Source: Halichondria panicea
Taxonomy: Eukaryota; Porifera; Demospongiae; Suberitida; Halichondriidae
NCBI RefSeq assembly: GCF_963675165.1
Contig: NC_087384.1
Coordinates: 855,001-919,000, forward strand
Direction: 5' to 3'
DNA length: 64,000 nt
In this document: positions 9,722-60,599 of the stretch, one piece after another
Position numbering within the stretch: the stretch's first letter is position 1
Layout of the letters: every line of letters begins with the position of its first letter
The notes under the pieces: model-generated
Databases searched by the model: none
What the model saw: the letters and a program-made list of their open reading frames with translations, nothing else
Told to the model about the DNA's origin: nothing
Translations under genes and position numbers: made by a program

Positions 9722-9809
9722 CAAAGCGATCCTGTCTAGAGGAACTTATGTTCAGCAATTGCAGCAGTACCATCATCACTTTCACAATCAGGTAGCAAGT
9801 AACCGACAT
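9722..9809 (-). pseudogene. Orphan signal-peptide exon of a C-family receptor (C0 remnant)
   Basis: Read on the minus strand, ATG at 9809 opens an 88-bp exon coding for a hydrophobic leader (core VKVMMVLLQLLNISSS) and ending in phase 1 at a GTTAGT donor. It matches exon 1 of C1 (19836-19737, ending AATG|GTTAGT) and exon 1 of C2 (55710-55638) in sequence, phase and position 475 bp upstream of an A gene. No C-type Ig, FN3 or membrane exon follows; the space is filled by the foldback element and the tandem array. The leader exon is intact while the rest of the gene is gone. It could still be transcribed from the shared promoter. Confidence 0.8.
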
Positions 9810-10283
9810 CATAATAATATAACATGCACCGCTTTGACCATAGATAGTGTGACTGTCTATACAGAGAGGATTCGTGATGAGCTGACTTACGGCCTGGAAT
9901 CGAGGCTAGAGTGTATCATTTGTAGCCTTTATAGCTTTAGTATAATTTTCTTTAGGCTAGTTAGTACAGTAGTGCATGGACATCATGAGACCATATAGAG
10001 ATAGAACATTATACGGTCCTTCACATGTATGACATGTGCACATGGCTATGAATCAAGACGGCATGTGTGGGATGTGTGCATGAATGCATGAATATAACAT
10101 TTATGCTCCCCGTACACATTATAACAACACATGATTTCACTTAATACCAATGATTTTACTCTGCACATATATTATCGTAGCTTCGAAGCAGCAGATAGAC
10201 TGTCAGTCTCGTGAATTCTAATAAATGGACAGCATAATAGTTACTAGATCTATTAGCTCTCTGTCAGTGTCACTATAGAAAGT
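9810..10283. promoter_or_regulatory. Putative bidirectional promoter region, cassette 1
   Basis: This is the 474-bp interval between the start codons of the C0 remnant (minus) and A1 (plus). It contains TCATGAGAC (9983-9991), the reverse complement of GTCTCATGA, a word also present in the two sister intervals. A CATGTGTGGGATGTGTGCATG-like block at about 10060 resembles one at about 20090. Promoter function is inferred from head-to-head geometry and shared words only. Confidence 0.5.
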
Positions 10284-12882
10284 ATGCATTTTAAAATAAG
10301 CATAGCCATAGTAGTAGTTAAAGTTTTAGCCATGATAGCTTTACATACTCTACAGGTATCATGCCAAGTCAACTTGACAGCAAACTTTGATACACAAGAC
10401 AGTATCATCGAAGGAACAATAATTACTCTGACGTGCAGAGTTGAGGACCGTAACAATGGACATGGAGCAACAATAATAAGTGGTAGCCAAGCTATATTCA
10501 ATTGCCCAAGTTTCAATACAGTTCATAGCAATAGAATCTACTTAGTGCACATACATTTGCACACTGCCATAGCAGAGTGTGGAGAGCTCGTTTTTGGTCG
10601 AATAGTGGAGGTGCAAAATGGAACAACAACTGTGTACATTGCCCAAATCTATATCGTCACAACAATTGCCATGAACGGAGGATATGTAGAATGCAGTGAA
10701 CTCGGACAGGATGGTAGTCAACAAATACAGCTGTCCAATATCATAGGTAGAGTGAATTATGACCGTTTATACTGTGCTTGTTCCAGTAACTATATATAGA
10801 TTATAGTGCCATTATCTATATAATCGTATAATGTGCTATTAGTGACTGATGGAGCTTGCATGTACAGCAATTAATCCCGTATCACATCCAGTTCAGTAAT
10901 TGTACGTCGCCATTGAAAGCATTAAATGAAAACTGCAGAGAACTCCATCATGCATAGAAATCAATAACATCATCATGGTTACTCGTGCAATAAGCACTTC
11001 TAAGCACTATAATTATAGCAAGGTTAATATAGCACTCGGCTACACCTTGTGTGCAATTAGAAGCCTTGCCGCTATACTTGTGTTATTATAATCCCATATC
11101 GCACTATTTTAATTGCACTTTTAGCTACCATGGATTATATACACACACGTATACACAACACTGTTTATATGCATGCAGTTCTTCTTGGTCCTCTTGCTGT
11201 GAAGTTTCCATCTAATGATACATTTTTCATTTATTGGAACCAATCCAATGAGAGTGCCACTCGGATTGCACATTACTCCATCAATGTGACTGGAGAGGAC
11301 TGTGGTAACTGCACCAACCTTGATAGGATTGTGAGCAATGTCACTAACCAGCTTTCATGCACTGGGTGGGAGCCCAATGGACAGGTTTGCAATGTTACTG
11401 TCACGGCAGTCGCTTCTGTACAACGATTGAACTTTTCAAGTCTAGCCACAGTCTATTTACAAAGTGAGTCAGTTAATATATATATATCACAGTAAAAACA
11501 GATTTGTTATATTAACATAAAACATCTCAAATGAAATTTAATGTAGAAACGACATACTTTTCTGTTATAATGACACTAAAATACGATGATGCATCCCATA
11601 TAACATAATATGTGTTTTTACTTATATACCTATACCGGTATAATATACATGCATGCGTGCTTGTGCTTATTTAATTTACGCTAAAGCAGTTAAATTTTAC
11701 TCGAGTCCATTTCATACACTACTCACATCTATCTCGGCACATGGTACAGCTCCCACGGCTCCTTTCTTGGAGGAACTAATACCTGTCTATTCATATGACC
11801 GCGAGGAACTTCAAAGCGTGGAAATATTGCTGGCTGTAAGTTATCATGAATGCGTGGTCATGATCATAAGGATACTATCTATACAGGCTGACTCCACTGT
11901 TGACCCTAATGACCTTCCCATTACGTTTCAAGTGAATGTGGAGCGTTCTAGTCAGGACGATATTCCAATTAGCTGCTTTTTCAATTTTTCTGCCAAAAGT
12001 AAATGCAGTACAACTTATGCTCAAAAATATCGCTGTGGAATTAATTTCTCTGTTAGGCGTTGTTCGCAGTTACTTTTTCAACAAGAACAAGAAGCAGCCA
12101 ACTATCAAATCAGATTCTTTGCAGAAACTAGCATCGGGAGATCTCTAAGTGCAAATTCTAGTGTACTAGGTAAGTTGAACTTTGCACTATACTCTCATGC
12201 AGTATATAGATCTAGGCTGTAAGTTTATAATTATGCATCATCATAATATATTTACATGCAGCTTATGCTAACTTAGCGGTGCGGCTCTTGATTGAGCCAC
12301 AGCAAGCCCAAGAAGAGTTTAGTTACATCTCTATCATCTTTCAACAAATACATGCGAAAGTTAGTTCCAAGATCAAGTATGGTCCCAACTGCCAGGCTCT
12401 TGACAATCAAGCATCTAGTGTTGATTTTATTGTGACTACAGTGACGTTTCCTGTTTCTATCACTGACAAAATTTGCTTCATTGTCGTAATCAACAACACT
12501 TTTCAGTCTTATATAATTCAAGGAAACTTTACCATAATAAGCAATGAAACATCGACGACTTTCTCAGGTAATCTTGCTAGATCTATATAGCATTGAGCGT
12601 GTGTCCTCCATTATATAATTTTATGCAGGTACATCAGATTTAACCACCTCCGATTCAACTACTTCTTTTTCAACTAACTATGATTCAACCATCTCAACAC
12701 TACTGGTGATAATTGGATTTCTTACCACTCTTTTTGTTGCCGCTTTGCTAGTCATTCTAGTGCTGCTACTAGTATACCTTTGTAAACGATGGCAACAAAA
12801 GAAATCTGAAGATAAGTATAACCTGTCATCCTGGCAAGATAATGAACAAATTAAACTCAAGAAGTTGTGCAGTAGGCAGTAG
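10284..12882 (+). CDS. A1: Ig-like/FN3-like single-pass receptor
   Basis: Six exons: 10284-10746, 11179-11463, 11750-11835, 11887-12169, 12262-12567 and 12629-12882, 558 residues. All junctions are GT-AG with phases 1,1,0,1,1, and the frame stays open. Exon 1 holds a signal peptide (to about VSCQ) and a diverged Ig-like domain with FNCPS and MNGGYVEC motifs. Exon 2 is an FN3-like domain with GEDCGNCTNL and SCTGWEPNGQVCNVTV. Exons 3-4 and 5 encode two more cysteine-containing sandwich-like segments. The last exon has a Ser/Thr-rich stalk, a helix of about 25 residues (VIIGFLTTLFVAALLVILVL) and a 37-residue tail with one tyrosine (DKYNLS). Many N-glycosylation sequons are present. Ligand and function are unknown. 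Its close paralogues are A2 and A3. Confidence 0.8.
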
Positions 12883-13394: not shown

Positions 13395-15120
13395 ATGAAG
13401 GTAGCAGTTGACCTAGTTGTTACACCTTTATATCTTTTTGAATCAGGTAAGTACTCTGATTAACTGCTTGTCCGTATGAATAATTCTATCTTGGTTATGC
13501 AGTTCTCTTGGCTTACTGCAGTCAAGAGACACTCCTCAACAAGAAGCAAACTTCTGGTTGCTACAGTGCTAATGATACTGTTGCATTCGTGTGTACTGTA
13601 ATGGATTCTAGTCACTATGATGGAACAGACTGGAGTGGCACTGCTTTCAACTGCCCTTCAGCAAACTCAATCATTAGCAACATGATCTTTTTGCCACATG
13701 AGCATTTCAGTTCTGTTGCACGTGGCACTTGCAACAATGGCACAATTGTTGCAGAGGGTACAGAAGTGAATGGTTCATTCTATATGTCAACGCTTACTAT
13801 AGCGCCAGTTACCCTAGACATGACTGGGCAAACCATCATCTGTTCAGTTTCAGGGATTATCCTAATCGGTACGGGTAATACAAGTAGTTTCTTTAGTATC
13901 ATGTCACCAGCCGAGGGTTTGCACTTTAGTGCTCTAGTTAGAATGGTATTGGCATGCAACAAAAGAAAACGAAACAACTTTTGCATTTCGTAACGTCATT
14001 ATGACCCTTTACCTACTGTTGCACTAATAATTGCAGTAGTGAATGTGTTGCATTTTGAACATAGATGAGAATGGATTCACAATCAAGTATGTGATTGTAT
14101 ACACTCACTCATCACTGGGAAGTGAGCCGATGGAGATTCTGTTGGACTGTGCCTCAAGAACTGAATGTACACACATCCTCAATGTTAATAACTCTCATGG
14201 GGAGTACTCAATAGCAACTGGTGCTGTGACTCCAGTGGGAAAAGCAATCCAACAGGACAACTCCACCATAACGATTGGTGAGTTTACATGCAATATTATA
14301 ACGACTTGTTTTTGTAAAAATTGAGTTTCATATGATTTGATATACTATACTTTTCTTTATATAGGAACAAACACTTTTGTACGAGTTACTGTTGATGTAT
14401 TTCAGAGTTTCACAGCTGTCAACTGTTTTTTCTTCGACAAATACAATCAAATATCCTGTGAAGTAGAGTACAGCCAAGATTGCGATACCCTTATTCAGAA
14501 AAAAAGAAATGGAGCTTCAATTAATGAGTCAGATGTGGCTATACTTCTTAATGATGTCTTACCATCAACACAATACTGCTTTGTCTTGACAGCTGAAAAT
14601 CAAACGTATACTGTGAAAATACAAGGACAATTCACAGGTGAGTTGATAATAACTGAAACTTGTAAGCCCATGCATGTTCTATATTCCAGGACACAGTGTA
14701 GAAAGCACCCTCGTGATAAGCACAAGCATAACTACACACTTTACTCCAGGATACAATGTGGTAGAGAGCAATCTCAGCATAAGCATAATAACAAGTGTCA
14801 CCATCTTTGTAGCTTTAGTCTCTCTAATAACACTCATTGCAATCATTATTGTCTGTTACAAGAAAAAGAGAAGCTCAAAAAGTGATGAATCTATAGAACC
14901 TGTTTATTACTCCGTTGTAAGGCCCGTGGCTGAGGAAGTCACACCTGATCCAACTTATGATGAGATCTCAGTAGCTGTGAAAACATGGAGGGATATCACC
15001 ACGGAAGCCAACGAAGCATACCACCCCGTGTCAGTGCAACCTAACGAGGCCTACCAAACAACCAACATCATGCAACCTAACGAGGCCTACCAACCAACAA
15101 ACATCATGCATGATAATTAG
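13395..15120 (+). CDS. B1: tyrosine-tailed Ig-like receptor lacking its FN3 exon
   Basis: Exons by comparison with B2: leader 13395-13446, Ig-like 13503-13868, then 14065-14277, 14365-14637 and 14690-15120. The FN3 exon and the short exon after it are missing. About 195 bp of unrelated sequence, including a piece of the 0.7-kb tandem repeat (13903-13939), takes their place. A GTACGG donor at 13869 and an ATAG acceptor at 14064 would rejoin the remaining exons in frame, giving 444 residues. The ectodomain keeps WSGTAFNCPS. The membrane segment is about VTIFVALVSLITLIAIIIVC. The tail has VYYSVV, TYDEIS and three NEAY motifs, one from a local duplication. It may be a shortened functional gene or a young pseudogene; transcripts would tell. 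Confidence 0.65.
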
Positions 15121-15256
15121 TCTATATATATCTCACACCCAGCTTGAATTTTTTCATGGACGCTATATAGATCAAGTCAGTTGCAGGTAGATATAATTAT
15201 GTTTCCACCAGTTTCCATTTAAACATTGTGTGTGTTTTAATAATTATTACATACCA

Positions 15257-15497: not shown

Positions 15498-15683
15498 AGT
15501 ACATAGAGTTCAGAATTCAGCAAGTCTACATGTACATGCACATGTAAAAATATACAAATGCATGTATAGCTAGATAGTTTTGCAGTTTGTAGACACATGC
15601 TATAACAGTATAACCAAAATAAAAGCAGGAGGAGCTCTAAAACACAAATGTCAATTCGAGGGATGATTGTGTCCTTTGACTGA

Positions 15684-15795
15684 CTAGTTGAAGTGCTGGT
15701 AGATGGTAACTAGGAAGGTCATGATGCTCCTAGAGTCTGGAATCGTCACCATCACCATGTCCTCTATGTCCAACATCTCTAGAATGCCCGCTTCC
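15684..15795 (-). pseudogene. Orphan copy of the last exon of a smoothelin-like CH-domain gene
   Basis: This 112-bp minus-strand exon is the same length as the terminal exon at 61018-60907, with the same CTCTCAG-like acceptor, phase and stop. It reads EAGILEMLDIEDMVMVTIPD followed by SRSIMTFLVTIYQHFN and stop, differing at three residues. No other exon of that gene is nearby. Homology continues into the upstream intron to about 15940. It shows that the duplicated block carrying the receptors also carried the 3' end of the neighbouring gene. The reading frame is undamaged despite isolation, which points to a recent duplication or to gene conversion. Confidence 0.85.
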
Positions 15796-16039
15796 CTGAG
15801 AGAGGCGATGCATGACGTGGGAGAGCATCAGTAGATATCATATGAATACATCATGTGATATAGAAGTCGAAAGCTGATCAAGAAGCACAAGACAATCCAA
15901 CTCAGACGTCCCTTCAAAATCTATATCATTTCGTCCTTTAAGAAAAAACACAGTGTGTGCATACTAAGCTACCTTAGGTGCAGTAACAAATGTAATGATT
16001 GCTTATAATGCATGCTCAACAATGATCATACTCAATACT

Positions 16040-17413: not shown

Positions 17414-19836
17414 CTAATTAATGGAGACACTATTCTGTGTAATAGTTTGTTGTAGTTCTATATTTAAATAAGATACATTACTCGCGCCACGGTCTCGGTC
17501 GTCAGGATCAGGCTCTACTGATCGCAAATCTTCACCAGCACCTGCATGCATGACACAACATGCCATAAAATTTAGCTATGATGTATACTGTTTCATTGAT
17601 AAATGCCTCTGAATAAGCACGCATGGTGTTTAGTAGGCAATAAAGAAGCCAATAAGAATTAATATTAAGCGTACTTAAGACATACATGCAGTTAGTGTTG
17701 TAGCTTACTATTTTTTCTCCTGTAACACAAACACTCTCCAAGTACTATTACTACCACCAACAACACCACAGCACTGGAACCAATAGTAGAGCCAATAATA
17801 AGCTTTGAATCTGAAAGGGAAATACACGTAAAATAATATGTAGCAATAAATGCTACTTACAATCAAAACAGCGACATCCATCCTGCAGAATATGACTTAT
17901 AGATGGTTGAAATGTTCCATTAGCACAGCGACTTTGACTTTGGTCTATAGTGCAATTACGGTCACAAGAAAAGTAAAGTGTTGAGTTGTGAGGAATCATT
18001 TCAATCCCACGTGGGATTTCACCATTGGTTGAGTTAATGTTCACCCTTGTAGAATTTGATGTTTTGAGTATGCATGGTAAGAGAATCAGTTCTTGTCTCT
18101 CAGTTCTGCCGAGTTCTAGTTCATTATGGAAAATCACGATGGAGTAGCAGATTGTGCCGGCTACAACAGGAACGCATGTTTTGTAGCCATCTTGCAGAGT
18201 GTAGTTGTTAGTACTGTTGGTTAACTCAGGATCAGATTCACAAGATCCCATATTGAACTGGACTTGGGCTTGAAAGATGTCACTTCTCTCATCACAGTGA
18301 CTGTTTATTGACACTTCAATGCACTGATCAGGAGTGACAGCAGAGCTTGTGTCTAACATGATAGTGTCTTCAACTGCGTAATTACATACAATTAATTTTT
18401 GCCGGTTCATACTAAAATGGTATACTATTATAGTGCCCAACAAAATCAAATTGCAAAGAAATCCCAAACATGCACCACTATTTATCACAAGTTGCTTATA
18501 AACTGCATGGCATATATAAACATGCCACTAACACGCATGTCTGCATGCATAATTATATAATACCTGAGAATTCTATCGAGTTATAAGCGAACTTGTTCTC
18601 CTCTTCTAAAGCCATAACCTCCACAGTAATATTCCAGATATCACCAACCAAACCATAATCTTCCCTCAATAACGTTGAATTGACGTATTTGGTTCTAACT
18701 TTTGAGTCTAACAGGGTATCCAAGACAGTGTGGTTGGACTGGTCTGAAATGGTTATCAGGAATCCCGAGAATGCACGTCTGCTCTCTTCAGAGAAGGCAT
18801 ACTGCATTATAATGATTAATTTATATCATAATTTGATACTTTAAGCCTTACAATCCATTCCACATAGATAGGAGGAGGGTTAGGGGTGAGTGAGCAAGTG
18901 ATGGACACTGTACTGTCCATTGGTGAATTTATTGGAGAATCTGTAAATGACATAAACACATGTAAATGCAGTTTTAAAATTCATGTAAAACTCACCAGTA
19001 GTTGCCTCAACAGGAAGACTGTCAAACGAACAATCTTTGCTCACTGTATTGACTTCAAAACAGCACATGTTATTATTTTCTTCAATACATGCCATACAAT
19101 CAGCTGTAAGTTCCGTTTTGTTGACAAACCCAGCTGCAGGGTTGCAGTGTCCACACTTCTTGCCATATCTAATTTTGTATCCTCCGATTCCACCAACACT
19201 TTCACTTGGAGGGAACCAGTCAAACTGGCAGCTTTGATCTAGTCTAGTTATTACCCTCACATGTGACGGTGGATTTGGAGGTACTAAGAAATTAAACAAA
19301 TGAACGTAATTTCAGTGTAAATTAAGGCATGCATGTAAGCTTTAAAAACACTTACCTCCAACTCTTATTGGAAATATTTCAGTGTGACCCAAGAACTGGC
19401 AACTAATGAAACTTCCATTCATTTCATGGTTAGATACAAATGTTATCACAGAAATTAGACTTTCGGAATTCTCTGTACAAGTCACGTTGGCAAAGTAGGG
19501 ACCACATACTCCAGTGTGTACTATCCCATGTATTAGTGGACATGGTGATGTTGGGAGAGCAAGGACATTGTTGGAAATACTGCTAACGCTTGGACAGTCA
19601 AAACCAACACCGTTCCACAAGAGTATACCATACACAGCTGGAACTTCACATTCGTATGTTATCATCGTCCCTTCATTGAAGCATTTTTCTGTGCTAGCTG
19701 CTAATTAATATAGCTTAATTCATTAATTTAACTAACCATTAATGTCTTGGTCCAGTCTAGAGAAGCTCATGTTCAGCAATTGCAGTAGTACAATCACTTT
19801 TACAATCAGTTGGTGATTAACTAGGATCAAATACAT
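17414..19836 (-). CDS. C1: Ig-like/FN3-like receptor with sushi-like membrane-proximal module
   Basis: Eight exons on the minus strand: 19836-19737, 19700-19356, 19283-18996, 18940-18852, 18801-18564, 18373-17861, 17810-17709 and 17541-17414; 600 residues, GT-AG throughout, phases 1,1,1,0,1,1,1. Exon 1 is a signal peptide (start MYLILV). Exon 2 is the Ig-like domain with WNGVGFDCPS and MNGSFISC. Exon 3 is FN3-like with KKCGHCNPAAG. Exons 4-5 form a split third domain. Exon 6 ends in a sushi-like segment (IPRGIEM..LYFSCDRNCTI..GTFQPS..DGCRC). The helix is in exon 7 (SSAVVLLVVVVIVLG). The tail of about 45 residues is acidic with one tyrosine, SYLN, a Grb2-SH2-like Y-x-N. The start codon lies 423 bp from that of A2 on the other strand. 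Confidence 0.8.
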
Positions 19837-20258
19837 GGCCATGCATACGCTTCAAGATGTTTCCCTTTTCACCTATACATGCACATTAATGATGATAGCT
19901 ATAATTATAATATGAAACAAATTACCTGGGCCGTCAGCATATAAAGCACAGTACGTCAGCTTGCCCCGGTCTTGGTAGCTAGATGCAATATGTGAGTTTT
20001 GATCATCCACGGCCAGTATAGTGTATACATGCACTGCATGCCGCTTATAATGTATGTGATGATTCTACTTTTATAAAGATGCCATGTGTGGGACATGTGT
20101 GCATGTGGGATATGTATTATGAATGTATTTGCACTTGGAGTTACACCTGCATGTGAATTTACTTAACACACAGTCTCATGACCTTATTATTATTTGCTAT
20201 CTGCCTATGATATATGGCAATGCTGCTATAAACTTTGTCAATGTCACAATTAAGAACT
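19837..20258. promoter_or_regulatory. Putative bidirectional promoter region, cassette 2
   Basis: This 422-bp interval separates the start codons of C1 (minus) and A2 (plus). GTCTCATGA lies at 20173-20181, as in cassette 3 (55993-56001) and inverted in cassette 1. A CATGTGTGGGACATGTGTGC block at about 20087 resembles one at about 10060. The tight, conserved head-to-head spacing suggests co-expression, which is inference. Confidence 0.5.
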
Positions 20259-23200
20259 ATGGATTTTAGAAAATTAAGCATTGTAGTGCTTTTAGCATCC
20301 CAATTAGTATCATGCCAAGTCAACTTAACAAGAAACTTTGATCCAGACTGCATCATTGAAGGAACAGTGGTTACTCTGACATGCACGGTTGAGGAGGACC
20401 GTAACGATGGATCAGTGGCAACAATAATAAGTGGTAGCCCAGTTATATTCGATTGCCCAAGTGTCAATACAGTTGAAGATAATAGGCTTTACTTAGAACA
20501 CTCGGCAAATACATCTACCATAGCTGTTTGCGGAGATTTTGTTTCAGGCCGATTAATGGAGGTGCGAAATGGATCATACATCGCCCAAATCAGCATTACC
20601 ACTACAATTGCCATGAATGGAGGAAATGTAGAATGCTGTGTACTTGGAATACAAGATTGTCGACAAATACAGCTGGACAATATCAAAGGTATAATAACAC
20701 ACATGCATGCATGCAATCACATACATGCTTGCATGCAATATTAGTACTGGCAAGTCCTTAGATTGTCTGTATGTAGTCTCATGAATCAGCTGCCATGCAT
20801 GCCCTTGGCCTTCCTATATAGGGGAGAGATTGTCTGAGCTTTAGTAAACTTTTTGGTAAGGTCAGAATTCCGACTTGACCAATCACATGTCAAGGATTGA
20901 GGAAATAATAAGAATGAAATAAAGCGTATATGCGTTCTATGTAGTGGGGCGCATTTAGCTAGCGCTGGCGTATATTGCTATGAATCACAAGGGCAGGGTG
21001 TTAGCTAGTCAGCCTAACACTATTATATTTAGTTACAGTCAAGGAGTTCTAGTATAACTTGAGTTGACTGCACTATATAAAGACACAGAAAAAGGAGGGA
21101 TAGGAACGGAGTGATGCACGTACGTGATGCTTTTACATTGAATCTGTATGTGAAGCCTCGAAAACTATCCGTTTTTCGCCCTATAAACGAGGCTTACATT
21201 CCAGTAGAGTAACTGAGTTATAAGCTTCTAGGTGCTGATTTTCTGAGGTATTTAATTATTGCTATAACGTGTATATAGCCGAGCGTGCTGGTTATAACTA
21301 CTAGATCTACTATACAATAGGTATATTAAGTGAGTTGCACAGAATAGAAGCACATTTTCGTGTTGTTTATTATGAAACTGTGTGTATAATTATGCTTATA
21401 ACTTTGGGTGTGGTCAGTCATTAGTACTACATGTGGCTCACAGACTGGGCATGTTATGATGTCTCAATGAAACACTTATTTTTAACGAGTTAGCCGGCAA
21501 AATAGCCTCGTTTATATAATTCTAATTATAGGGCGTAACATGTATAGTTTTCGAGTCTTTACTGCTGTGCAGATTCAATGTAAACGTGCACTGCTTCCAT
21601 TACCAATCCCTCTTCCTCTTACACAGTCTCGAATAAACTTTATAATTTGAGGAGCACCCCATTGAGAAATTGCTTCCTACGCCACTGCTTTAGTTTGCAT
21701 ATAAACGGCAACCTTTGCATGCATTAGCCTTGTTTGGCTACCATATATAGCCAGTAATTTTTGGGGGCAAAACATTCGTGGTTGAGCAATATTTACACTT
21801 TGTTGATAATATTTCGTGGTTGCTGCTTACACTGCAGATAAAGGTAGGGAAAGTCGCTTCATTCGTGGGTAAAATATTTGTGTCAACGCTTCAACCACGA
21901 AAACCACGAATATTTTGTCCACCGGAAATTATCCGCTATCATAATAATACATTACCTGCAGCCTAGAGAGTAAAATCTACAATAGGGGGAGTATTTGTAC
22001 TTAAGGTTGGAAGAAATTGTGCTGATACCATTGTATAGGTGAATGTAAGCTACAACATTATTCAAAAATATTTTCCCAAAAGTTTTGGTGTAGTGGGAAG
22101 GAGAAAATGGGGATGATCATAAAAAAATGTGTGTATAACATCAAGTATCTCCGGAACTAAAGTATTTCTGGACAAATTTTTGTATCAAAAAATTAACAAT
22201 AATAATTATGCAAAACAATTAGACTTTATCTACATCAAATTTGCTTGAGTTCCATCGCTAAGCAAAAAGGCACCCAAAAAAACTCAATAATTGAGTAGTA
22301 ATCAGTTTGTGTACTTATGTAAACTTTACGAAACCAAGGGCGTATAAAAGAAGAGAGGGCATGCAACTCCTATATGAGCAGAGTTCAAACGTGGGCGGAT
22401 GAATGTGCATGATTGTGCATGAAATGCTAAAAATAGACATTTCTATTTTTAGCACTTCATGCAAATGCACACATTCCTCCGCCCACGTTTGAACTCTGCT
22501 AGCTACGTGTACTGATAGTGGAGTTGCATGCCCTCTCTTCTTTTATACGCCCTTGACGAAACCATGCATATGTTAGATAAATTATTCAGGAATGTTGTGC
22601 CAGAGTTCCCTTATATATACCTTAGCCAACAACGATTGGTCTTTTCCATCACTATAAGCGATTGTCCACTATAGAACATTTTTGCTCTTATATAAACCAC
22701 CACATACCCATCACTTTTGGTTTCCATGGAAACAATTTTGGGTATTTATGTTTGAGTATTCACAATGGTACGGTAGAACCTCGCTAATCCGAATAGAGCT
22801 AGAATAGTCTTTATCTCAACTTTCTTCCCAATACAGTGAGTCTTGTTGAGCTCTCTCTTCGTTTTCTTTACAGTGGACATTGTCTTGAGAGTTTATCAAT
22901 AAAATTATTGCTGATTCAGCTAAGCAATTTACATTGCGCATGCACAGTTCTCTATTCTACTGACACCAGCAAATACGAAACGTGATCCCCGAGTATACGT
23001 TGAAGTTAGCCGCTCCTTCTCATGCAGGCTACCTATTGCTTTCAAGCCCTTATATTTTTCAAAATATTGTTATTAGGCCTATATAAATGCATGCACACAA
23101 TAATTTTTATAAATTGTATATGCAGCTTCTTTTGCTCCTCCTATCATATATGTGGAATTTCCATATGATGCTACATTTTTTGTTCACTGGAACGCGGTAA

Positions 23201-31650: not shown

Positions 31651-31816
31651 ATAATTACAACAGAATTTACAACAGAGTGGGTTAGGGCCTCTCATATACA
31701 ACTGAATTCTTTATCACAATTTTATTAATCATTGAAATAATACCCCTTTCCTCCCCTCTCCAAGGCCAATTTAGACCAGGAGAGTACCATCTAACAAAAA
31801 TCAGTCACACAGCACA

Positions 31817-48028: not shown

Positions 48029-48832
48029 TTTATATCCCGTTGCTACGTTGTTGCCAAGTGCAATATGCTTCATATTGCACTGCTGAAAGTCATATTGCAT
48101 TGACCGCAAAGTCATATTGCACTGACCGCAAAACGCCCCTCTGGCAATTAGACAGACAATTAAATTAAAATTAAATTAACACGCATGAGAAATAACAAGT
48201 ATCAAAGTATGTCCAGCCATGCAGGAATGAATGTTCAGCACTGCTGGAGTTTCTTCTTGCAACCATGCAGGTTTTAAAATTGTCCAAGATTCATTTTGTG
48301 GAAGATTCTGTGTTCCTAGATCGACCTAGTCCTCGACATCGTGATGCATGTCAATTCTGCTTCACCGTAGCACTAGAAGTGGCTCTTTTTGCTGGGGGCA
48401 TGAGCTGTTTTGCAGCAGTGTAGAAGCGAGCTTGCTTGGCTTGGTTATGAGGCCGAGCGTAGACCAGCAGCTAATACATGTATTCACTGAGTAGTGGGGT
48501 GGGGCTGTTTCTTTGCAGCCAGCAGTAAGTGGGGCGGGGCTGTTTTGCAGCACCAGAAGTGGGGTGGGGCTGTTTTGCAGATTTCAGTTGAAACTCCAAC
48601 AATTTTGTGTCAAGCCATTCGTCGGTCATGCCAATCTTATACGCTGCAGATACTGGCGTCTAGAAGAGAGAAGAGATGGAGCTGTGTCTAGAGTTGTCTC
48701 TGTCTTTTTTTGTGCTGTTTATATTGTGTTACTAGGACAGTGTTATGTTGCTATGCCCTCGGGATATAAACTAGTTATAACACCTGCACTCGGGATGCAT
48801 GGCATATATTGCACTCAGCCCTCGGGGCTGGC
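48029..48832. repeat. 0.8-kb dispersed repeat, copy 2
   Basis: Near-identical to 24701-25503 in the same orientation, 23.3 kb apart. It begins in TATCCCGTTGCTACGTTGTT and ends CCTCGGGGCTGGCG. It is preceded by a GTAGCCTCGATCCCAGGCCG short repeat at 47940 and followed by the ATGCA-rich minisatellite. See copy 1 for content. Confidence 0.85.
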
Positions 48833-48939
48833 GTATGGCGCGCCGTGTGTTTCAATAACAATGTCTGCATATACATAGGAGTGTCCTGGTGTGAATATAC
48901 CGACATAGCATGCACGTGCAATGATCGCCTTATGCAGTG

Positions 48940-50761: not shown

Positions 50762-51887
50762 ACGGAATTAAAGTTATGACCGCTCAAATATGCTACTTAA
50801 GGTATACATGAAATGTCATAAAGCTGGCTACATTAGAGGACCACTATTAATGTTCCATAATTCTTTAATTCACTCGCACAACAATTATGACCGTGCAGGA
50901 TCAATTCTACGAGTATATATACGGGGAGGCAGCCAGGCACGACGTGAAGGTGCTGTTTGAGAACAAGCCCAAGTTTCTACTAGTGCACTCGTCCTCAGGG
51001 CACAAACACACCCTCAAGGAAGTGCTAGCTGACCCAGCAGTGGCAGTGCGACTGGCAGACACTAAGGTCAGTAGGTCTGTATACAGTTTGTATGCTAGTG
51101 CAAAATGCTGCTGAAGTGCAAAAAATATTTTAACTGAATTTTGTGGGTCACTGTCATTGAGTGTACTGTGCCCTGTATATAATTATGTGTCTGTATACTG
51201 TCCCGGAGGGGGAGGGGTTATCGATAAGCAGAAATTACCAATCATGTGGAAATATATTATTGTACACAGATAAATTACTTAGTTGTTTGCCCCCCCCCCC
51301 CCTTCTCCCCAGGCCCTTGCCAAAGTGAAGACATTGGATGCTTTCTACAGTATGTTACAGTCAGAACCTAACAGAGCATATTACGGGTGAGTCCATACAG
51401 CCCCTCACAACTGTCACACCCTCACACCCGCCCCCACACAGTATACGGCATGTGGAGAAAGCGAAAGAGGCTCACGCTATCGAGATACTCATGGTCACAG
51501 ATGAACTGTTCAGGTAAGTTCTCGACGTTTTGTGATTTGGTTTCTATTATAATTATGATAATTATAACTTGTTGAGATATCTATAGTGCACCCTTAGACC
51601 GATATTAGGGTTGTATAAAGAAGTGGCCTGCTAAATGTAAGACAGGTCCAAACACATGCTATGGAGCCTATAATCTAGCTGTATTATAGAGGCCGGGTAA
51701 CCTGCTTTACTTGGTGACCACAGGGAGATCTTACTGTATGGTTATCAAGTGTGTGTCTGTGTCTGTGTCTGTGTGTGCAGATCAGCAGATGTTCCCACGA
51801 GACAGAGATATGTTCGACTAGTGGAGGCAGTCAAAGATGGAGGAGGAACTGTACGCGTCTTCTCAAGCCTGCATGTCTCAGGAGAAC

Positions 51888-52644
51888 GTATGTACAACGC
51901 CCACTCACTGTACTTTACCCTGTGTGACTATTCCTACCACTATTGTATCATGCTTAAGCATTATTATGCCTCGAGGCGTAGCCGCACGAGGGATACGGTA
52001 AAGCTGACTGTGTGTGTGTGTAGACTCGCAAGCCACTCCCTTTTCTCTGATTGGACGGGGGCGGGAGAAAAGGGACTGGTGACTCTGGGACACATTTTGT
52101 GTCTCTACCAGAATTTGGGTAGAGATTATTCATTGATTTTTCCACGTGATCCAAAAATTGCGTGAGGTTAAGTAGAATTGCGTAGCCTGCAAAAGTGATC
52201 GCGGGCTTCTTAGCTACAGTTTAAGAATGGATGCTAGTGCTAGAAAAGAGAAGATGATGGAGTAATAACATCATCAGGCATTCAGCTAGGATATAGTCAT
52301 CTAACTTCTAAGACACCAGCAGAGATTAGCTTGTTTTAGTTTTACGTGATGAGAACTGGCAGCCGAAAGTCATTGGTTGCCTAAAGCTTTTAATAACCTG
52401 TACAATACAAGACAGATAATGGCAGACGGCAGCAGTTGAATTGAGAGTAGTCAGACTTGTACAAGCTGTCTTAAATCGCTGCCACTCCTCGGTTTAAAGA
52501 AGGACTGCCAAGATTTCTACGTTCATCAGCTGTTCCATGCTAATCCACAAGTTGTGGCACAACAGACACTGGGACTAGTGACCAATCAGATAGCAGTAGA
52601 CTTCTGAGCAATTCGAATTGTGATTCTGTGCATGTACCGTATAG
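51888..52644. other. Spacer between pelota fragment and the C2 block
   Basis: No gene. A short dispersed repeat ATGCCTCGAGGCGTAGCCGC lies at 51967 (family also near 26933). From about 52566 (GACTAGTGACCAATCAGATA) the sequence is homologous to 16980 onward, the edge of the duplicated C block. Confidence 0.5.
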
Positions 52645-52907: not shown

Positions 52908-55710
52908 CTAATTAATGGAGGCATTATTCTGGGTAACGGTTTGTTCTGTATTTAAATAAGATGCATTACTTGCGCTACCGTTCCGGTCGTCAGGATCAGG
53001 CTGTATTGATTGCAAATCTTCACCAGCACCTGCATGCATGACACAACATGCCATAAAATTTATAGTTCTGATGTATACCGTTTCATTGATAAATGCCTCT
53101 GAATAAGCACGCATGGTATATAGTAGGCAATAAAGAGGCAATAAGAAGTGTACTTAAGACATGCAGTTAGTGTGAGTAACTTACTGTTTTTTCTCCACCT
53201 GCAACACAAACACCCTCCGAGTATTATTACTACCACCACCAACAACAACAACACCACAGCACTGGAACCAATAGTAGAGCCAATAATAAGCTTTGAATCT
53301 GAAAGGGAAATACACATAAAGTAATATGTAGCAATAAATGCTATACTTACCATCAGAACAGCGACATCCATCCTGCAGAATATGACTTATAGATGGCTGA
53401 AATGATTCATTGGCACATCTAGTTTGATTTTGGTCTAGAGTGCAATTAGAGTCACAAGATAAGTAAATTATTGTGTTGTGAGGAATAATCTTTTCAATTC
53501 CAGGTGGGATTTCACCAATGGTTGAGTTAATGTTCACCCTTGTAGAATTCGAGGTTTCAAGTTTGCACGGCAAAAGAACTAGTTCGTGTCTCTCAGTTCT
53601 GCCAAGTTCTAGTTCACTGTGGAAAATCACAGTGGAGTAGCAGATTCTGCCGGCTACAACAGGAACGCATGTTTTGTAGTCCTCTAGCGTGTAGTTGCTA
53701 GTGGTGTTAGTTAATTCACTATCAGATGCACAAGATCCCTCAATGAACTGGACTTGAGCTTGGAAAGTGTCACTTCTCTCATCACAGTGACTGTTAATTG
53801 ATACTTCAATGCATTGGTCAAGAGTGACAGCAGAGCTTGGGTCTATCATGATAGTGTCTTCAACTGCATTATATATTCGTTCATAAAAAGAATTCCTGTA
53901 TAATTATACTGTCCCGTGTATGCATGCACCATTGTGATAGCTTTCTAAATTATACTGCACTGCATGGTAATACAATTTTATTGTACTATCTATTTGGACA
54001 TGGACAATACAATACATGTCAATGTAACTATATTATACCTGAGAGTTGTATCGATTCGTAAGTAAATTTATTCCTATCTTCATCAAAAGCAACGTCAACA
54101 ACAAAATTCCAGATATCACCAATAAAATCATGTTCTTCTCTCAATACAGTTGAATTGACATATTTTTTCCTGACTTTTGAATACTGCTTGTCCAGGATAT
54201 ACGAGACACTGTGGTTCGACTGGTCTGAAATGGTTATCAGGAATCCCGAGAATGCACGTCTGCTCTCTTCAGAGAAGGTATACTGCATGCATGTATGTAT
54301 GAATTATAATTATGACCAATAAAGAATAATATAAGCCTTACGATCCATTCCACATAGATAGGAGGAGGGTTGGAGGTTAGTGAGCAAGGGATGGACACTG
54401 TACTGTCATTTCGGGAATTTATTGGAGAATCTGTAAATGACGTATAGAGTCTATACACTGTAAAAAATGATGTGTGGTTTTCAACACAGAGTGCGCACTT
54501 ACAGGAAAACCACACATCAGTGTAGATCTACCGTACGTATAGTTAATAGTATGGTTAAGAGTGCAGCATGGGATTAATAGCACGAGTATAACAAGGCTAT
54601 AATTATATATAATTATATACGCACTGTATACAGAGGAGGTTGGTCATCATTTACTATATATACTAGTATAGATTTACAATCATTTTCAGTATGTTAGCTT
54701 AGCTATAGAATAGCTACTTTTCTCTCTTAATTATTAGTTTATACGCACATTCCTCCATAAAACATTACGAGTCATGACGAACCTCTTCTGCACACAGTAT
54801 ATGTATAATTATAGTTGCTTATAGTTAGCTGTGAAACTTACCAGTAGTGGCCTCAACAGGAGCACTGTGAAACCAACAATCTTCACTAACTGTATTCACT
54901 TCAAAATAGCACATGTTATTGTTCTCTCCAATGCATTCACTACACTCAGCTGTGAGTTCTTCTGTTTTGTTAAAAAACCCAGCTGCTGGTGTGCAGTTGC
55001 CACAGTTCTCTCCATAAGTAATGTTGTATCCTCCGATTCCACCAATACTTTCATTTGGAGAAGTCCACCCAAATCGACAGCTTCGATCTTGTTGAGGTGT
55101 CACCCTCACACGTGACGGCGGATTTGGAGTAACTATTCGAAAAATGATAACTATAATGATACGTTTTATATAGCTACATGCATGGCTGTTCTAATAGTCC
55201 AATTAAAAACAGCGAAAACTTACCTCCAATTCTTACTAGAAATGTTTTAATCCCATTATTGTTTAATCGACAATTAATAGTGCCTCCATTCATTTCAATG
55301 TTAGTTTCAAATTCTAAGATAGAAGTTAGGTGTTGATCATCTGTACAAGTCAAGTTTCCAAAGTAGGGACCACATATTCCAATGTAAACAGGTTCATCTG
55401 GTAGTGGACAGGTTGCAGTCGGGAGAGGAAGGGTATTGTTGGTGATAGTGTTACTGCTAGGGCAATCAAAACCAATACCATTCCAATCGAGTGTACCAAC
55501 CTCAGCTGGAACTCGGCAGTGATATGTTACTATCTTTCCTTCATTGAAACAGCGATCTGCTGCATGCATGATTATATATAGGTGTTATATAAATTATCAC
55601 CATTTAACTATACAGAATAACTTATCCTATAACTGACCAAAGGGTCGATCCAGTTTAGAGGATCCTATGTTCAGCAATTGTAGTAGTAGCACAAATCCTA
55701 TAGTTGACAT
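52908..55710 (-). CDS. C2: Ig-like/FN3-like receptor with sushi-like module
   Basis: Eight minus-strand exons: 55710-55638, 55559-55224, 55123-54842, 54430-54342, 54282-54039, 53863-53351, 53298-53185 and 53029-52908; 590 residues, open frame, same phases as C1. Signal peptide MSTIGFVLLLQLLNIGSS. The Ig-like domain has DWNGIGFDCPSSNTI and MNGGTINC. The FN3-like domain has GENCGNCTPAAG and NMCYFEVNTVSEDC. Exon 6 includes a sushi-like end (IPPGIEK..IYLSCDSNCTL..ESFQPS..DGCRC). The helix is SSAVVLLLLVVVVIILGGCL. The tail is about 45 residues with SYLN. Intron 3 holds a 67-bp MITE. The ATG lies 430 bp from that of A3, head to head. Confidence 0.82.
54456..54522. mobile_element. 67-bp MITE with CACTG ends, C2 intron 3
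   Basis: CACTGTAAAAAATGATGTGT at one end and ACACATCAGTG at the other, flanked by TA on both sides. The ends and TA flank match the 1.7-kb element at 2448-4135. The matching C1 intron (18941-18995) lacks it. Confidence 0.75.
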
Positions 55711-56139
55711 TGTAAAAGCTGGAAAGTTTCAGTTTTGTGTCTATAGACACTTTATTATTATTATAGCTACAATGTTTTGCATGATGTGCAGTCAGTGGCT
55801 TATTTTCATGATTCTACTTACTTAATATGTCACATGTCATGTAGACAATTATGTGCGAGAACTGATTGGCCAATGAATATGTTTTAGATTTAAATTTACT
55901 TCTCTATGCATGCAAAAACAACAAATGATTTCATTTTACCACACCTGTGATTCCACTTCACACATGTAAAGGTGCAGACAGTATGTCGGTAGGTCTCATG
56001 ACTGCATGGCTACGCATGACGTGCATAATTATGAGTATAGCTCAAATAACAGTATAGCAGCATACTTATACTTATCTTAGCTATATATACACAACACCTA
56101 CTAACATACTATATAGCTGTTACCGATAACTCAAGAACT
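55711..56139. promoter_or_regulatory. Putative bidirectional promoter region, cassette 3
   Basis: This 429-bp interval lies between the C2 and A3 start codons. It contains GTCTCATGA at 55993-56001, shared with the sister intervals at 20173-20181 and, inverted, 9983-9991. The rest is AT-rich with little similarity visible by eye. Confidence 0.5.
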
Positions 56140-58261
56140 ATGGATTTCAAACTATTTTTAGCTATTATAGTTTTATGTGCATTGAAAATATCATGCCAAG
56201 TCAGCTTGGTACGTAACTTCGATCCAAACGACTGCATCATCGAAGAAACAGTAGTTACTCTGACGTGCACAGTTGAGGACCGTAACAATGGAAATGGGGC
56301 AACAGTAATAAATGGTAGTCAATCTATATTTGATTGCCCAAGTGTCAGCAAAGTTGAAAACAACATAATTTACTTAAGGCATGCACATATGGAATCTGCC
56401 ACAGCTATGTGTGGGGAACTCATTTCAGGCCGAATAGTGGAAGTGCAAAATGGAACATACATCACTCAAATTTACATTGCCACTAACGTTTCCATGAATG
56501 AGGGATATGTAGAATGCCGTGAATTTGGACAACAAGGCAGTTCACGAATACAACTGGCCAACATCGAAGGTGTGTAACTCAGTCTAAAGAATATAATTAG
56601 GCAGTTTATATGTGCATATAATATATACATGCATGCAGCTCTTCCACGTCGTCCCACCTTATATGTGGAATTTCTCGATACTTTGTTTCGCATTCACTGG
56701 AACCAGTACAACGAGGGTCTGACTAAGAGTTCAGACTCACACTTTTCTATTAAGGTGACTGGAGAGGACTGTGGTAATTGCACCAACCTTGATAGGATTG
56801 TGAGCAATGTCACCAACCAGCTCTCGTGCACTGAGTGGGAGCCCAATGGACAAGTTTGCAATGTTACTGTCACAGCAGTCGCTTCTGTATGTGGCTTACA
56901 ACAATTTATAAGCTCTTCACGTCTAGTCTATTTAAGAGGTGAGTGCATGTTAGTTAAATTTTTATAAGCTGAGCATGCAATATTGAACTTGAAGTTCCCA
57001 TGTACATTGTATAATGCTAATTATTACATGTATATATCTCACTAATTTTCAATTGAATTCGTCATGCATTGCTACTGCATGCACATTAAATTATCTCGGA
57101 CATGCATAAGATGTATACATGCAGTTCCAGAGGCTCCAATCTTGGAGGACCTAATGCCTGCTTATTCACTAGACCTGGAGGAACTTCAAAGCATGCAAAT
57201 ATTATTGGCTGTAAGTTGCCAGTGTCATGTATGCACATAACACAATGTTTACTACATACAATTATAGATTGAATCCACTGTTGATCTTAATGGCCTTCCT
57301 ATTGCCTTTCAAGTGAGCGTGAACCGTTCTACTGACCGATGGGATAATAATCCAGAGTGTTCCCTCAAAATTTTTGCCGGCAACAAATGCATTGCAAATG
57401 CTAATGCTCTAGTAAAGTATCGTTGTGAGATTAATTTCCCTGTTAACAGTTGTCAAGAACTATTTTTGCAACCAGAGCAAGACGCGGACTTTCAAATAGG
57501 AATTTTTTCAGAAAGTAGTATTGGAAGATCATCTCTAAATTTTTCCAATATACCTTGTAAGTTGACTATAATTCTACATATATAATAATATAGTCAGAAC
57601 CAATGCTGATTGCTGTTATTATGCATATGCATGTCTTTATACATGCAGCTTACGCCCATTTAACGGTGCAGTTTTTATTCACTGACCCACAACAGTCCCC
57701 CCCAAAATACAACTTTATCTCTGTTAACTTTCTTCAACTACACGACAACATAACTTCTATGATTAAATATGGTTCCAACTGCCAAGCTCTTGATAATCAA
57801 ATGACGATTGTTGGCTTTAATGTGACTACTCTGACATTTCCTGTTCGTGGTACCATGGACGATATTTGCTGGATTGTCACGATTAGTAACATTTCTAAGT
57901 CTTTAGCATTTCAGGGAAACTTTAGTACAGTGGATTCATCAGGTAAAATTTTTAGTCTGCCATGTTGACTGGGTTAAATAGAATCTATAAGCAAAATATA
58001 AAGTTGATATATAAATATTATTATAATTATGTTTGCTTCCATGCAGATGCATATCAAGTATCTTTTGACTACAGTATCAGTGCTGTGGTTTTTGCAGCAT
58101 TCGTTTTGTTCATCATAACCTATACTCCAACTGTAACATGGTATACCCGAAGAAAATATAGCAAAAATATAAATGTTCAGGCTAATAGCAGTATCAAGTC
58201 GGAGCTGTTGTCCAGTGAGGCTGAACATGATATACATAAACAAAATAGCTATAAATTATAG
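56140..58261 (+). CDS. A3: Ig-like/FN3-like single-pass receptor
   Basis: Six exons: 56140-56569, 56639-56938, 57125-57210, 57268-57556, 57649-57942 and 58047-58261; 537 residues, open frame, phases 1,1,0,1,1. Signal peptide MDFKLFLAIIVLCALKISCQ. The Ig-like domain has SIFDCPSVSKV and MNEGYVEC, without the tryptophan seen in B and C. The FN3-like domain has GEDCGNCTNL and SCTEWEPNGQVCNVTV. The fourth segment has KYGSNCQALDNQ and DICWIVTI. The helix is ISAVVFAAFVLFIITYTP. The tail (RRKYSKN..SSEAEHDIHKQNSYKL) has two tyrosines in no obvious signalling motif. It is the most compact A gene, with introns of 57-186 bp, and shows what A2 looked like before transposon invasion. Confidence 0.82.
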
Positions 58262-58469
58262 TTTCTATGCTGAACAACTTATAATATGCAACACTGAGTT
58301 TTGTTTTTAGCAAGTCAGTTTAATTTTAACCTCCTTCTTAATGTCAGTACTTCCTGTGGATATACACATGCATATGATGTGTGGTGGTTTGCTTTATTTG
58401 CATGCAAGAAGTAAAATGCTGAATTGCCAATGCCAAGAGTACTCTTATCTATACTTTTATAGATCTAGA

Positions 58470-60599
58470 ATGATTTTTTTCTGGATGCTCTTACTCAAAG
58501 GTATATATGTAGCTAAATATGTGTGAACTACTAGCTAGGTACTTATACATGCACGCATGCATGATTGTGTGTTTTCAACTTTAGGGGTTTTAACACAAAA
58601 TACAATATTCCTGGGTAGAAACAAGATAACAAATTATTGTTACGATGAAAACGAAACTTTGATGTTTGTTTGCTCTGTTGAGGATGACAGTCACCATGCT
58701 GCCACAGTGTGGAGTGGGACAGCATTTAACTGCTCTAGTGTGTTTTCGATCACAGACAACCAAATATACTTGGCTCATTTACAATACAGCTCATTTGCGT
58801 ACGGCTCTTGTAATGATGGTGCTTTCTCTGCTGAGGGTATTGAATTTAATAATTCATTGTACACTTCAACTCTTACTGTAATGCCGGGCTCTCTAGAAGT
58901 ACCAAATGGAAAGACGATTGACTGCAGTCTCTCTGGAGCTACCATATTTGGCTTAGTAATTTTTCGTGTAGGAGGTAAGCTGGATAACATATGTATCATT
59001 TTTGTATCTCTATATAGACTTACACAGTTGTACCTGAGCCCCCTATTGGTAATGGCCTTACTTTTTCAGTAGAGACTTCCCAACTTTTAACAGTAAGTTG
59101 GACTGAACCATTGGGAGTGACTGGTGGAGTTGGTGGATTCTTAGTTGATGCATCCAGTGATTGTGGACAGTGCATTAATGTGGGTATAGTGAGTGCCAAT
59201 GTGACAGACATGTCATGCTCGGGATGGGATCCCATTGGACAGACCTGCAACATCAGTGTCTACACAGTTACTGCCTATTGTCAGATCCAGAGTGAGGTCC
59301 CCCTCTTGTTTGCAATACACTTTAAGTGTGAGTTTATATACATTCATATCACGGATTTATCACAGATTTATTGTATATTGCAGTGCCTGAAATACCAAAT
59401 ATCACTGCGATTATTGTAACGTATGAACTCAGTGGTAATTTAAAAAGAATAACAACAACTCTTTCAAAGAAACAAGTAAGAAAAACGTATACTAATCAAG
59501 TCATGCATGCCGCCGAGTTTCATTAATGTAGAACACAACGGATGAGAATGGATTGACTGTCATCTATGTCCTTGCGTACACCCACTCATCCATTGGAAGT
59601 AATCCGGTAGAGGTGCTACTGGACTGCTCAGAGAGCATTGACTGCATGGATGTATTCGAGGTAGACCAAGCTCAAAAGTTTGGAGAATATTCTGTTGCAG
59701 TTGGTGCTATGACTCCAATTGGGAAAACAGTTCAACACAGTAACAACAGTTTGACAATTGGTGAGTGTTATCCTCTAGTTGTCAAAAATGTTTATCTTGT
59801 GGGATCTTTTGTTTTTAAATTATGTCATATACAGGAGTAGCTAATACATTTATGTATGCTACTGTGGATGTGCTTGAGAGTTACACTATTGTCAACTGCT
59901 TTTTCTTGGCAAAATATGACCACATCTCCTGCCAAGTGGAATATAGCCACGATTGTAACAGGCTCTCTAATAGCAAGCGAAGAAGTGTGGTTAATGCATC
60001 TGACGTCTCTATTCTCCTTGAAAGTATCTCTCCTTCAACAGTGTACTGTTTTGTCTTGACAGCTGACAACCAATCGCACACTGTGAAAGTGCAAGGGAAT
60101 TTTAGTGGTTTGTTGTTAGTGAGACGTGTGTTAACTGTACGTACTTCCCCTGCATACAGGATACAGTCTACTGAGCAACGCGTGCAACTCCAGCAACAAC
60201 TCTGGCAACAACTCCAGCAACAACTCCAGCAACAACTCCGGCAACAACTCCAGCAACAACTCTGGCAACAACTCCGGCAACATCCTCAGCACAAGCTTAA
60301 TTGTCATCATGGGTGTCACCATCCTAATGGCTTTAGTCGCTCTGATAACACTCGTTGCAATTATAATAGTGTTGTACAAGAAAAAGAACAGCTCAATAAA
60401 AAGTGATGAACCTGTAGAACCTGTTTATTACTCCGCTGTCAAGCCTGTGGCTGGGGAAGGTGCACCTGATCCGACTTATGATGTAATCTCAGCTGTTAAG
60501 ATGAGAGATATCCCCACGGAAGCCAATGAAGCATACCACCCCGTATCAGTGCAACCTAACGAGGCCTACCAAACAACCAACATCATGAATGTCAATTAG
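58470..60599 (+). CDS. B3: Ig-like/FN3-like receptor with Asn-Ser repeat stalk
   Basis: Seven exons: 58470-58500, 58585-58974, 59028-59327, 59384-59475, 59532-59760, 59835-60107 and 60160-60599; 584 residues, phases as in B2. Exon 1 codes only a short hydrophobic leader (MIFFWMLLLK), so the true start is less certain. The Ig-like domain has VWSGTAFNCSS. The FN3-like domain has SSDCGQCINVG and SCSGWDPIGQTCNISV. The donor after exon 6 (GTTTGT) is weak. The last exon opens with a 12-bp-repeat stalk of NNSS and NNSG units (60190-60285), giving dense N-glycosylation sequons, then the helix (VTILMALVALITLVAIIIVL) and a tail with VYYSAV, TYDVIS and two NEAY motifs. It is the most divergent of the three B genes. 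Confidence 0.8.

Follow-up and report, generated by a model that had tools for sequence, protein, structure and literature searches.

The window analysed here is a stretch of 64,000 nucleotides from the sponge Halichondria panicea (NCBI RefSeq assembly GCF_963675165.1, contig NC_087384.1, positions 855,001 to 919,000 of the forward strand), and all positions below are those of the window. It contains three blocks of predicted receptor genes, here called cassettes, which are composed of a C gene on the minus strand followed by an A and a B gene on the plus strand. Our gene models, which are known from DNA alone and have one genomic sequence as their evidence base, confirm a preliminary description of the locus in that the order and orientation of the three families are constant at all three positions of the window. 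The claim of a three-gene cassette at each position holds for cassettes 2 and 3, which are whole, but not for cassette 1, which is eroded (only a signal exon remains of C1, and B1 has lost exons).

Exon borders were chosen by hand from GT-AG sites common to the copies, and a script verified splice dinucleotides, phases and open frames. All seven full-length models (A1, A2, A3, B2, B3, C2 and C3) have an uninterrupted frame between ATG and stop, and their 41 introns are all of the GT-AG type, which is partly so by construction. Intron phases are identical across all copies within each family, with six exons in A, seven in B and eight in C, and the five introns after the exon encoding an immunoglobulin-like (Ig) domain have the phases 1, 1, 0, 1, 1 in A, B and C alike. 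Signal peptide and Ig domain are fused in one exon in A, whereas the signal exon is separate in B and C. Most introns of the full models are short (36-104 bp in 30 of 41); intron 1 of C2, with 36 bp, is unusually so, and its junction is the least certain of the models. Short exons, mostly short introns and pieces of a Pelota gene and of a CH-domain gene give the window an animal character. C and A lie head to head in all three cassettes, as had been described, but the distance between their start codons, given before as 423-475 bp, is 471, 422 and 429 bp in cassettes 1, 2 and 3, respectively. Some 16.7 kb separate A2 from B2, most of it occupied by a tandem array of transposon copies about 11 kb long. 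No further copies of A, B or C were found in the window by tblastn at an E value of 1, apart from five short off-model matches (E 0.29-0.89).

Kinship, domains and tails of the receptors

The three families are related to each other. By blastp, A1 matches B2 along most of its length (E 3e-34), and for B2 and C3 the match (E 1e-18) spans about the first 270-280 residues. When the four extracellular domains (D1 to D4) of the three families were compared by hhalign, D1 matched D1 at 96-97% and D2 matched D2 at 64-99% in all three family pairs, while non-corresponding domains reached at most 6.3%. A and B additionally correspond in D4 (75%) and, weakly, in D3 (35-37%), and D3 and D4 of C found no hhalign match in A or B. 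The mutual similarity on which the preliminary description had staked its proposal is thus present, since D1 and D2 are common to all three families. Because these two domains match across families, and A and B also do so at D3 and D4, we conclude from the sequence comparison that A, B and C are paralogs, of which C is the most altered.

With regard to domain identity, the best of five AlphaFold models of D1 is an Ig domain of the V type (pLDDT 78.9, pTM 0.75). The first match of this model in Foldseek is a T-cell receptor V-beta domain (probability 0.99, TM-score 0.50/0.57), and the top 50 matches include many Ig domains and some non-Ig folds. Two cysteines, C30 and C113 in B2 numbering, are invariant in all eight aligned D1 sequences; a tryptophan occurs in all five copies of B and C and in none of the three of A. 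From the predicted fold, D1 can be assigned to the immunoglobulin superfamily (IgSF). An eight-sequence D1 profile retrieved no Ig chain from the PDB at an E value of 1, only two non-Ig matches at chance level. An earlier structure model, in which Ig and FN3 domains of B2 were read through an in-frame 48-bp intron, had been discarded in favour of the Ig exon alone, its FN3 half having a pLDDT below 50 and Foldseek giving nothing usable.

A profile of seven D2 sequences matches fibronectin (E 1.8e-7), by which D2 is a fibronectin type III (FN3) domain; the Pfam family fn3 was matched in C2 and C3 only, below the cut-off. In fact, Pfam gave no match above cut-off for any domain in the seven full proteins, and the sole Pfam Ig match among them is Ig_3 in D3 of C3, with 18.1 bits against a cut-off of 30. 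When single domains were searched against Pfam, B2 D3 and C2 D4 gave no match, and C2 D3 gave Ig_3 below the cut-off and a chance-like repeat. A Sushi-like fold of the C stalk, an idea taken from its cysteine spacing, was rejected, as no Pfam match was obtained even at an E value of 10. Domain support is accordingly limited to the Ig fold of D1 and the FN3 profile match of D2. A transmembrane (TM)-like segment lies near the C-terminus of all seven full proteins. N-terminal segments exceed the hydrophobicity threshold in five of them, B3 and C3 staying below it; residues 124-143 of B3, in the Ig exon, also exceed it and were not taken as a TM segment. The description of the products as single-pass proteins with Ig-like and FN3-like ectodomains therefore stands for the TM segment and the N-terminal end, but D3 and D4 are unsupported as such domains.

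The B tails contain tyrosine motifs, namely VYYSVV (B1, B2) or VYYSAV (B3), YDEI or YDVI, NEAYHPV and NEAYQTT, to which B1 adds NEAYQPT. B1 has seven tail tyrosines and B2 six, all six of which are kept at corresponding places among the six of B3, and 55 of 72 aligned tail residues are identical between B2 and B3. The consensus of the immunoreceptor tyrosine-based inhibitory motif (ITIM), [SIVL]xYxx[IVL], is present in B1, B2, B3 and C2 and not in C3 or any A. We take NEAY in the B tails to be a motif of the NxxY type, as bound by phosphotyrosine-binding (PTB) domains. The A tails, of 23-41 residues by the cut chosen here, contain none of the nine motif patterns sought. In exon 7 of B3, a 12-bp tandem repeat (60185-60282) that is absent from B1 and B2 encodes a juxtamembrane tract of Asn, Ser and Gly with many glycosylation sequons.

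Duplication, decay and divergence of the cassettes

Downstream of B1, positions 15509-15805 match 60724-61028 downstream of B3 with 89% DNA identity. The encoded peptides both correspond to positions 75-108 of the Pfam CH profile, with E values of 0.012 after B1 and 0.0004 after B3 that are below the Pfam cut-off in either case, and an open reading frame (ORF) beside the B3 copy (61163-61465, minus strand) covers CH positions 19-73 (E 3e-11). The CH-domain gene borders cassette 3, and it probably runs on to about 63.6 kb. As the end of this gene was copied together with the cassette, the fixed order of C, A and B can be explained by descent from one duplicated block, so that no selection on gene order is needed. 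The preliminary description had known of no described gene family with this exact architecture; we see in it instead the outcome of duplications by which one ancestral Ig-FN3 receptor became three families, with the arrangement resulting from block duplication. The region 4512-4752 matches the 3' end region of the CH gene (60649-60920) with 67% identity and may, judged by this match, represent the end of another block, a fourth one that was lost.

Duplication was accompanied by gene loss, as had been proposed: the CH-gene end was copied after B1, and exons of C1 and B1 were lost. Cassette 1 is decaying. No other C1 exons were found near its signal exon by tblastn with C2 and C3 as queries, and where the remainder of C1 is missing, 41 bp from the remnant on its downstream side, lies a palindrome (9304-9680) whose arms of about 157 nucleotides (9304-9460 and 9523-9680) are 100% complementary in the matched segments and 89% over the whole; it is either a foldback element or an assembly artefact. 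B1 is without exons 3 and 4, and its exon 5 lacks the beginning. The reading frame would stay intact for 447 codons, stop included, if a cryptic donor behind 13874 were joined to an acceptor ahead of 14065, and by these sites B1 may still make a shortened protein. The gap region of B1 contains, at 13.9 kb, a 53-bp piece of the tandem repeat at 6-9 kb, which consists of about four units of about 700 bp that are 79-92% alike (6093-9295).

The cassette copies are not of uniform age throughout. Over whole alignments, synonymous divergence (dS) is 0.25 and 0.13 for the parts of B1 compared with B2, 1.23 for B2-B3, 0.48-0.81 among the A genes and 0.33 for C2-C3. Between C2 and C3, identity amounts to 0.51-0.75 in introns 1-5, while introns 6 and 7 and the 3' flank reach 0.96, 0.93 and 0.91 and exons 7 and 8 reach 0.95 and 0.88. 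We read this pattern of identities as a probable homogenisation of the TM and tail end of C2 and C3 by recombination or gene conversion. Tail variation, the other feature that had been described, is borne out in A, whose last exon is its most diverged (identity 0.43-0.57, compared with 0.68-0.81 in the other A exons); as baselines, an unrelated control pair, the only one, has 0.47 and the 5' flanks of B1 and B2 have 0.45. The observed similarity of the A last exons was reached by 0 of 1000 shuffles for A1-A2, 23 of 1000 for A2-A3 and 269 of 1000 for A1-A3, in a comparison where the hydrophobic composition of the TM segment is uncontrolled.

The ratio of nonsynonymous to synonymous divergence (dN/dS) over whole alignments is 0.62 for A1-A2, 0.41 for A1-A3, 0.55 for A2-A3, 0.26 for B2-B3 and 0.53 for C2-C3, and 0.19-0.56 in four comparisons with parts of B1, such that all nine comparisons are below 1. 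These ratios suggest coding constraint with no overall excess of amino-acid change. Short single exons can be higher, as the signal exon is in C2-C3 (1.37) and in B1-B2 (0.99), and saturated exons give no value. Positive selection on the Ig tip was not supported, the highest dN/dS being 0.87 for C2-C3 (bootstrap 0.48-1.63).

Coordinates of all genes and of associated features are compiled in Table 1. In each full copy of the tandem array between A2 and B2, an ORF of 556 amino acids encodes a DDE_Tnp_1_7 transposase, presumably of the piggyBac type, and is accompanied by a 158-bp minisatellite of 12.4 copies; the array is either very recent or an assembly effect. A reverse transcriptase ORF of 402 amino acids (41755-42963; RVT_1, E 2e-17) is located upstream of B2, and an ISXO2-like transposase ORF lies at 46777-47139 on the minus strand (DDE_Tnp_IS1595, E 7e-13). 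An 806-bp repeat, 97.8% identical between intron 4 of A2 (24699-25500) and a site outside the cassettes (48029-48833), is probably a recent mobile-element insertion. Pieces of a Pelota (Dom34) gene are found between cassettes 2 and 3 (50869-52165), one of which matches Pelota in the PDB (E 4e-16), with the Pfam families eRF1_2 and eRF1_3 below cut-off. A search of Rfam gave no match.

Table 1 Genes of the three cassettes and associated features of the window (aa, amino acids).
Feature	Position	Strand	Exons or extent	Remarks
A1	10284-12882	+	6: 10284-10746, 11179-11463, 11750-11835, 11887-12169, 12262-12567, 12629-12882	558 aa; Ig, FN3, D3, D4, TM, short tail
A2	20259-26875	+	6: 20259-20688, 23126-23395, 23625-23710, 23766-24051, 26369-26653, 26715-26875	505 aa; introns 1 and 4 >2.3 kb
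A3	56140-58261	+	6: 56140-56569, 56639-56938, 57125-57210, 57268-57556, 57649-57942, 58047-58261	537 aa
B1	13395-15120	+	1, 2 (cut), part of 5, 6, 7	exons 3-4 lost
B2	43532-45602	+	7: 43532-43589, 43639-44028, 44077-44376, 44444-44535, 44605-44827, 44892-45164, 45217-45602	573 aa; six-tyrosine tail
B3	58470-60599	+	7: 58470-58500, 58585-58974, 59028-59327, 59384-59475, 59532-59760, 59835-60107, 60160-60599	584 aa; juxtamembrane Asn/Ser/Gly repeat
C1	9722-9812	-	91-bp signal-peptide exon only	remnant; donor GTTAGT intact
C2	17414-19836	-	8: 19737-19836, 19356-19700, 18996-19283, 18852-18940, 18564-18801, 17861-18373, 17709-17810, 17414-17541	600 aa; tail VSYLNI (ITIM consensus)
C3	52908-55710	-	8: 55638-55710, 55224-55559, 54842-55132, 54342-54430, 54039-54282, 53351-53863, 53185-53298, 52908-53029	593 aa; ITIM consensus lost (ASYLNT)
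C1/A1 divergent intergenic region	9813-10283		471 bp	candidate shared promoter, poorly conserved
C2/A2 divergent intergenic region	19837-20258		422 bp	
C3/A3 divergent intergenic region	55711-56139		429 bp	
3' end of CH-domain gene	15509-15805	-		co-duplicated after B1; CH profile positions 75-108, below Pfam cut-off
Tandem unit of ~5,051 bp	30707-41754		two copies and a third piece of ~948 bp	between A2 and B2; 99.8-99.95% identical

Possible roles and comparison with known systems

The locus is a cluster of receptors whose blocks were duplicated and have partly decayed, in which the C tail end is homogenised and the A tails have diverged. One ancestral receptor, composed of an N-terminal V-like Ig domain, an FN3 domain, further extracellular domains, a TM segment and a tail, gave rise to A, B and C. 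To the further reading that these are single-pass IgSF recognition receptors in a birth-and-death cluster, which has B as its signalling chain and spread by copying of the three-gene block, we give an even chance. C and A would be co-expressed from the short divergent candidate promoter, with B expressed alongside, and the V-like tips would engage a ligand, or one another, between cells. A, with a short tail that varies between copies and is without the motifs sought, would be a binding chain dependent on a partner, while phosphorylation of the B tail at VYYS[VA]V, YD[EV]I and the two NEAY motifs would recruit SH2 and PTB proteins. C could act as the third receptor, in part independently; its tail end was presumably homogenised between copies while its ectodomain drifted. 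The most likely use would be the discrimination of other cells, either conspecific self and non-self or microbes and symbionts.

Several observations weigh against this reading. The ITIM consensus arises by chance in 20-25% of shuffled B tails and in 10% for C2, whose motif VSYLNI is moreover lost in C3 (ASYLNT). The strict form of the immunoreceptor tyrosine-based activation motif (ITAM), Yxx[LI]x6-12Yxx[LI], is absent from the tails; a loose form with V at position +3 occurs in the B tails and in 6-7% of shuffles, and two NxxY motifs occur in 5-7% of shuffled B tails. The C-A intergenic region is poorly conserved, which leaves a shared promoter unproven. The homogenised end of C has no clean border, as exons 4 (0.90) and 6 (0.88) are also alike. 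No positive selection was detected on the Ig tip: among five pairs tested, C2-C3 is the single one in which dN/dS of the Ig exon differs from the rest, where it is the higher (nominal p 0.037, uncorrected). Finally, the other four D1 models have mean pLDDT values of 36-42, so that one of five is confident, and the D1 model has no Foldseek match at E ≤0.001.

Alternative explanations draw on the same observations. That the cassettes are ordinary cell-adhesion paralogs, which stand together as a by-product of segmental duplication without working together, appears rather unlikely to us: block duplication alone accounts for order and orientation, and the low dN/dS in all nine whole-alignment comparisons agrees with it, but a homogenised C tail end together with diverged A tail exons would be unusual for structural adhesion genes. 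An assembly artefact, in which the cassettes are uncollapsed haplotypes or misjoined copies, is very improbable. The 99.95% identical 5-kb tandem repeat and the perfectly complementary segments of the palindrome arms are both hard for assemblers; however, the cassettes differ at dS 0.13-1.2, in gene content and in their spacers, and alleles would hardly differ so unevenly. Surface receptors sensing microbes or symbionts, expanded like other innate receptors of sponges, are a tentative and somewhat unlikely alternative. The available sections of one study report that sponge Ig-domain genes change expression after microbial elicitors and cite Ig-like and FN3 genes as more abundant in sponges of low than of high microbial abundance (PMC6208332), yet SRCR, TIR and NACHT, the domains that mark the named microbe-sensing families of sponges, had no Pfam match in the seven proteins.

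Sponge graft rejection is specific and repeatable, which is said in the accessible part of PMC5450542 to indicate an underlying polymorphic genetic system. An allorecognition locus proper, the alleles of which would decide on fusion or rejection with A and B acting like the FF/FcoR pair of the tunicate Botryllus schlosseri, is unlikely in our estimate. In its favour, three units of IgSF receptors are linked and some of their members have decayed, the A tail is poor in motifs where the B tail bears tyrosines, and conserved genes (the Pelota pieces and the CH gene) separate and flank the units, parallel to the fuhc locus (PMC12065747, in excerpt) and to Alr clusters (PMC11067881, in excerpt). 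Against it, no positive selection was detected, and the graft-response transcriptome of Amphimedon showed no significant enrichment of cell-adhesion genes, the word 'immunoglobulin' being absent from its text (PMC5450542). It would be more speculative, and is in our view quite improbable, to propose a histocompatibility supergene of sponges, that is, a co-expressed Ig-FN3 trio of a motif-poor binding chain A, a tyrosine-signalling chain B and a divergently transcribed partner C, with copy-number variation between haplotypes. If true, this supergene would be an IgSF-type molecular candidate for self/non-self recognition in sponges, of which we know no earlier one, and linked units of receptor and signalling co-receptor would have arisen in sponges as well as in tunicates. 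Returning to the recognition cluster that we favour, the locus is defined, its receptor trios are present in copies, its gene models are open and it has a candidate signalling tail, which gives tests of haplotypes, expression and grafting a concrete target. In addition, our results suggest that domain counts based on Pfam could overlook such receptors, because none of the seven proteins passes its cut-off.

Relatives were sought in public viral and genome contig collections with the A or B Ig-FN3 or FN3 regions, an FN3 alignment, the last exon of B2 and the transposase as queries (C was not a query), and none were found; the sole match, to a contig of a bacterial metagenome-assembled genome, comprises 27 residues at 52% and was judged to be due to chance. 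Unnamed predicted proteins of Amphimedon presumably have W, C and N residues spaced alike in their Ig and FN3 domains. The vertebrate KIR and LILR families likewise combine block duplication and conserved tails with divergent ectodomains, but they belong to a different lineage, and the likeness is one of organisation. Among four sponge surveys (PMC4772301, PMC6208332, PMC4704026, PMC12909245), all include Ig domains and three FN3; their available sections give domain counts, combinations and expression changes and name neither a C-A-B cassette nor this family. No description of the cassette was found in the literature searched, which was covered at the level of titles and the openings of abstracts and mostly outside subscription papers.

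The preliminary description had likened the locus to clustered allorecognition or immune receptors such as cnidarian Alr, and the likeness in kind is supported, although fuhc is the closer parallel. Hydractinia has about 40 Alr and Alr-like loci that are clustered and include probable pseudogenes, with polymorphic ectodomains that bind their own or nearly identical proteins (PMC11067881, PMC11876637, both in excerpt). The sponge genes resemble them, by description and not by sequence, as clustered single-pass IgSF genes with low mutual identity and, in Alr, many probable pseudogenes; a fixed three-gene unit is not part of the Alr descriptions in these excerpts. In Botryllus, according to the available sections of PMC12065747, one fuhc haplotype carries three FF/FcoR pairs, each beside an HE3L gene, FF/FcoR copy number varies between haplotypes, and FcoR tails can carry an ITIM, a hemITAM or a core YxxI/L/V motif. 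The two systems differ in that FF has three TM segments and a Sushi domain, FcoR has a V-type Ig domain, Sushi and two C2 Ig domains, and the third gene is an E3 ligase, whereas the cassette genes are all single-pass Ig-FN3 paralogs, and no Sushi domain was matched by Pfam in the seven full proteins or the C stalk pieces. Compared by description only, both share repeated linked units that pair a receptor without known signalling domain with an Ig receptor whose tail can bear tyrosine motifs, as well as copy-number change and conserved framework genes around them. By this analogy, which claims no membership, FF/FcoR would be the nearest functional parallel of the sponge cassettes, closer than Alr.

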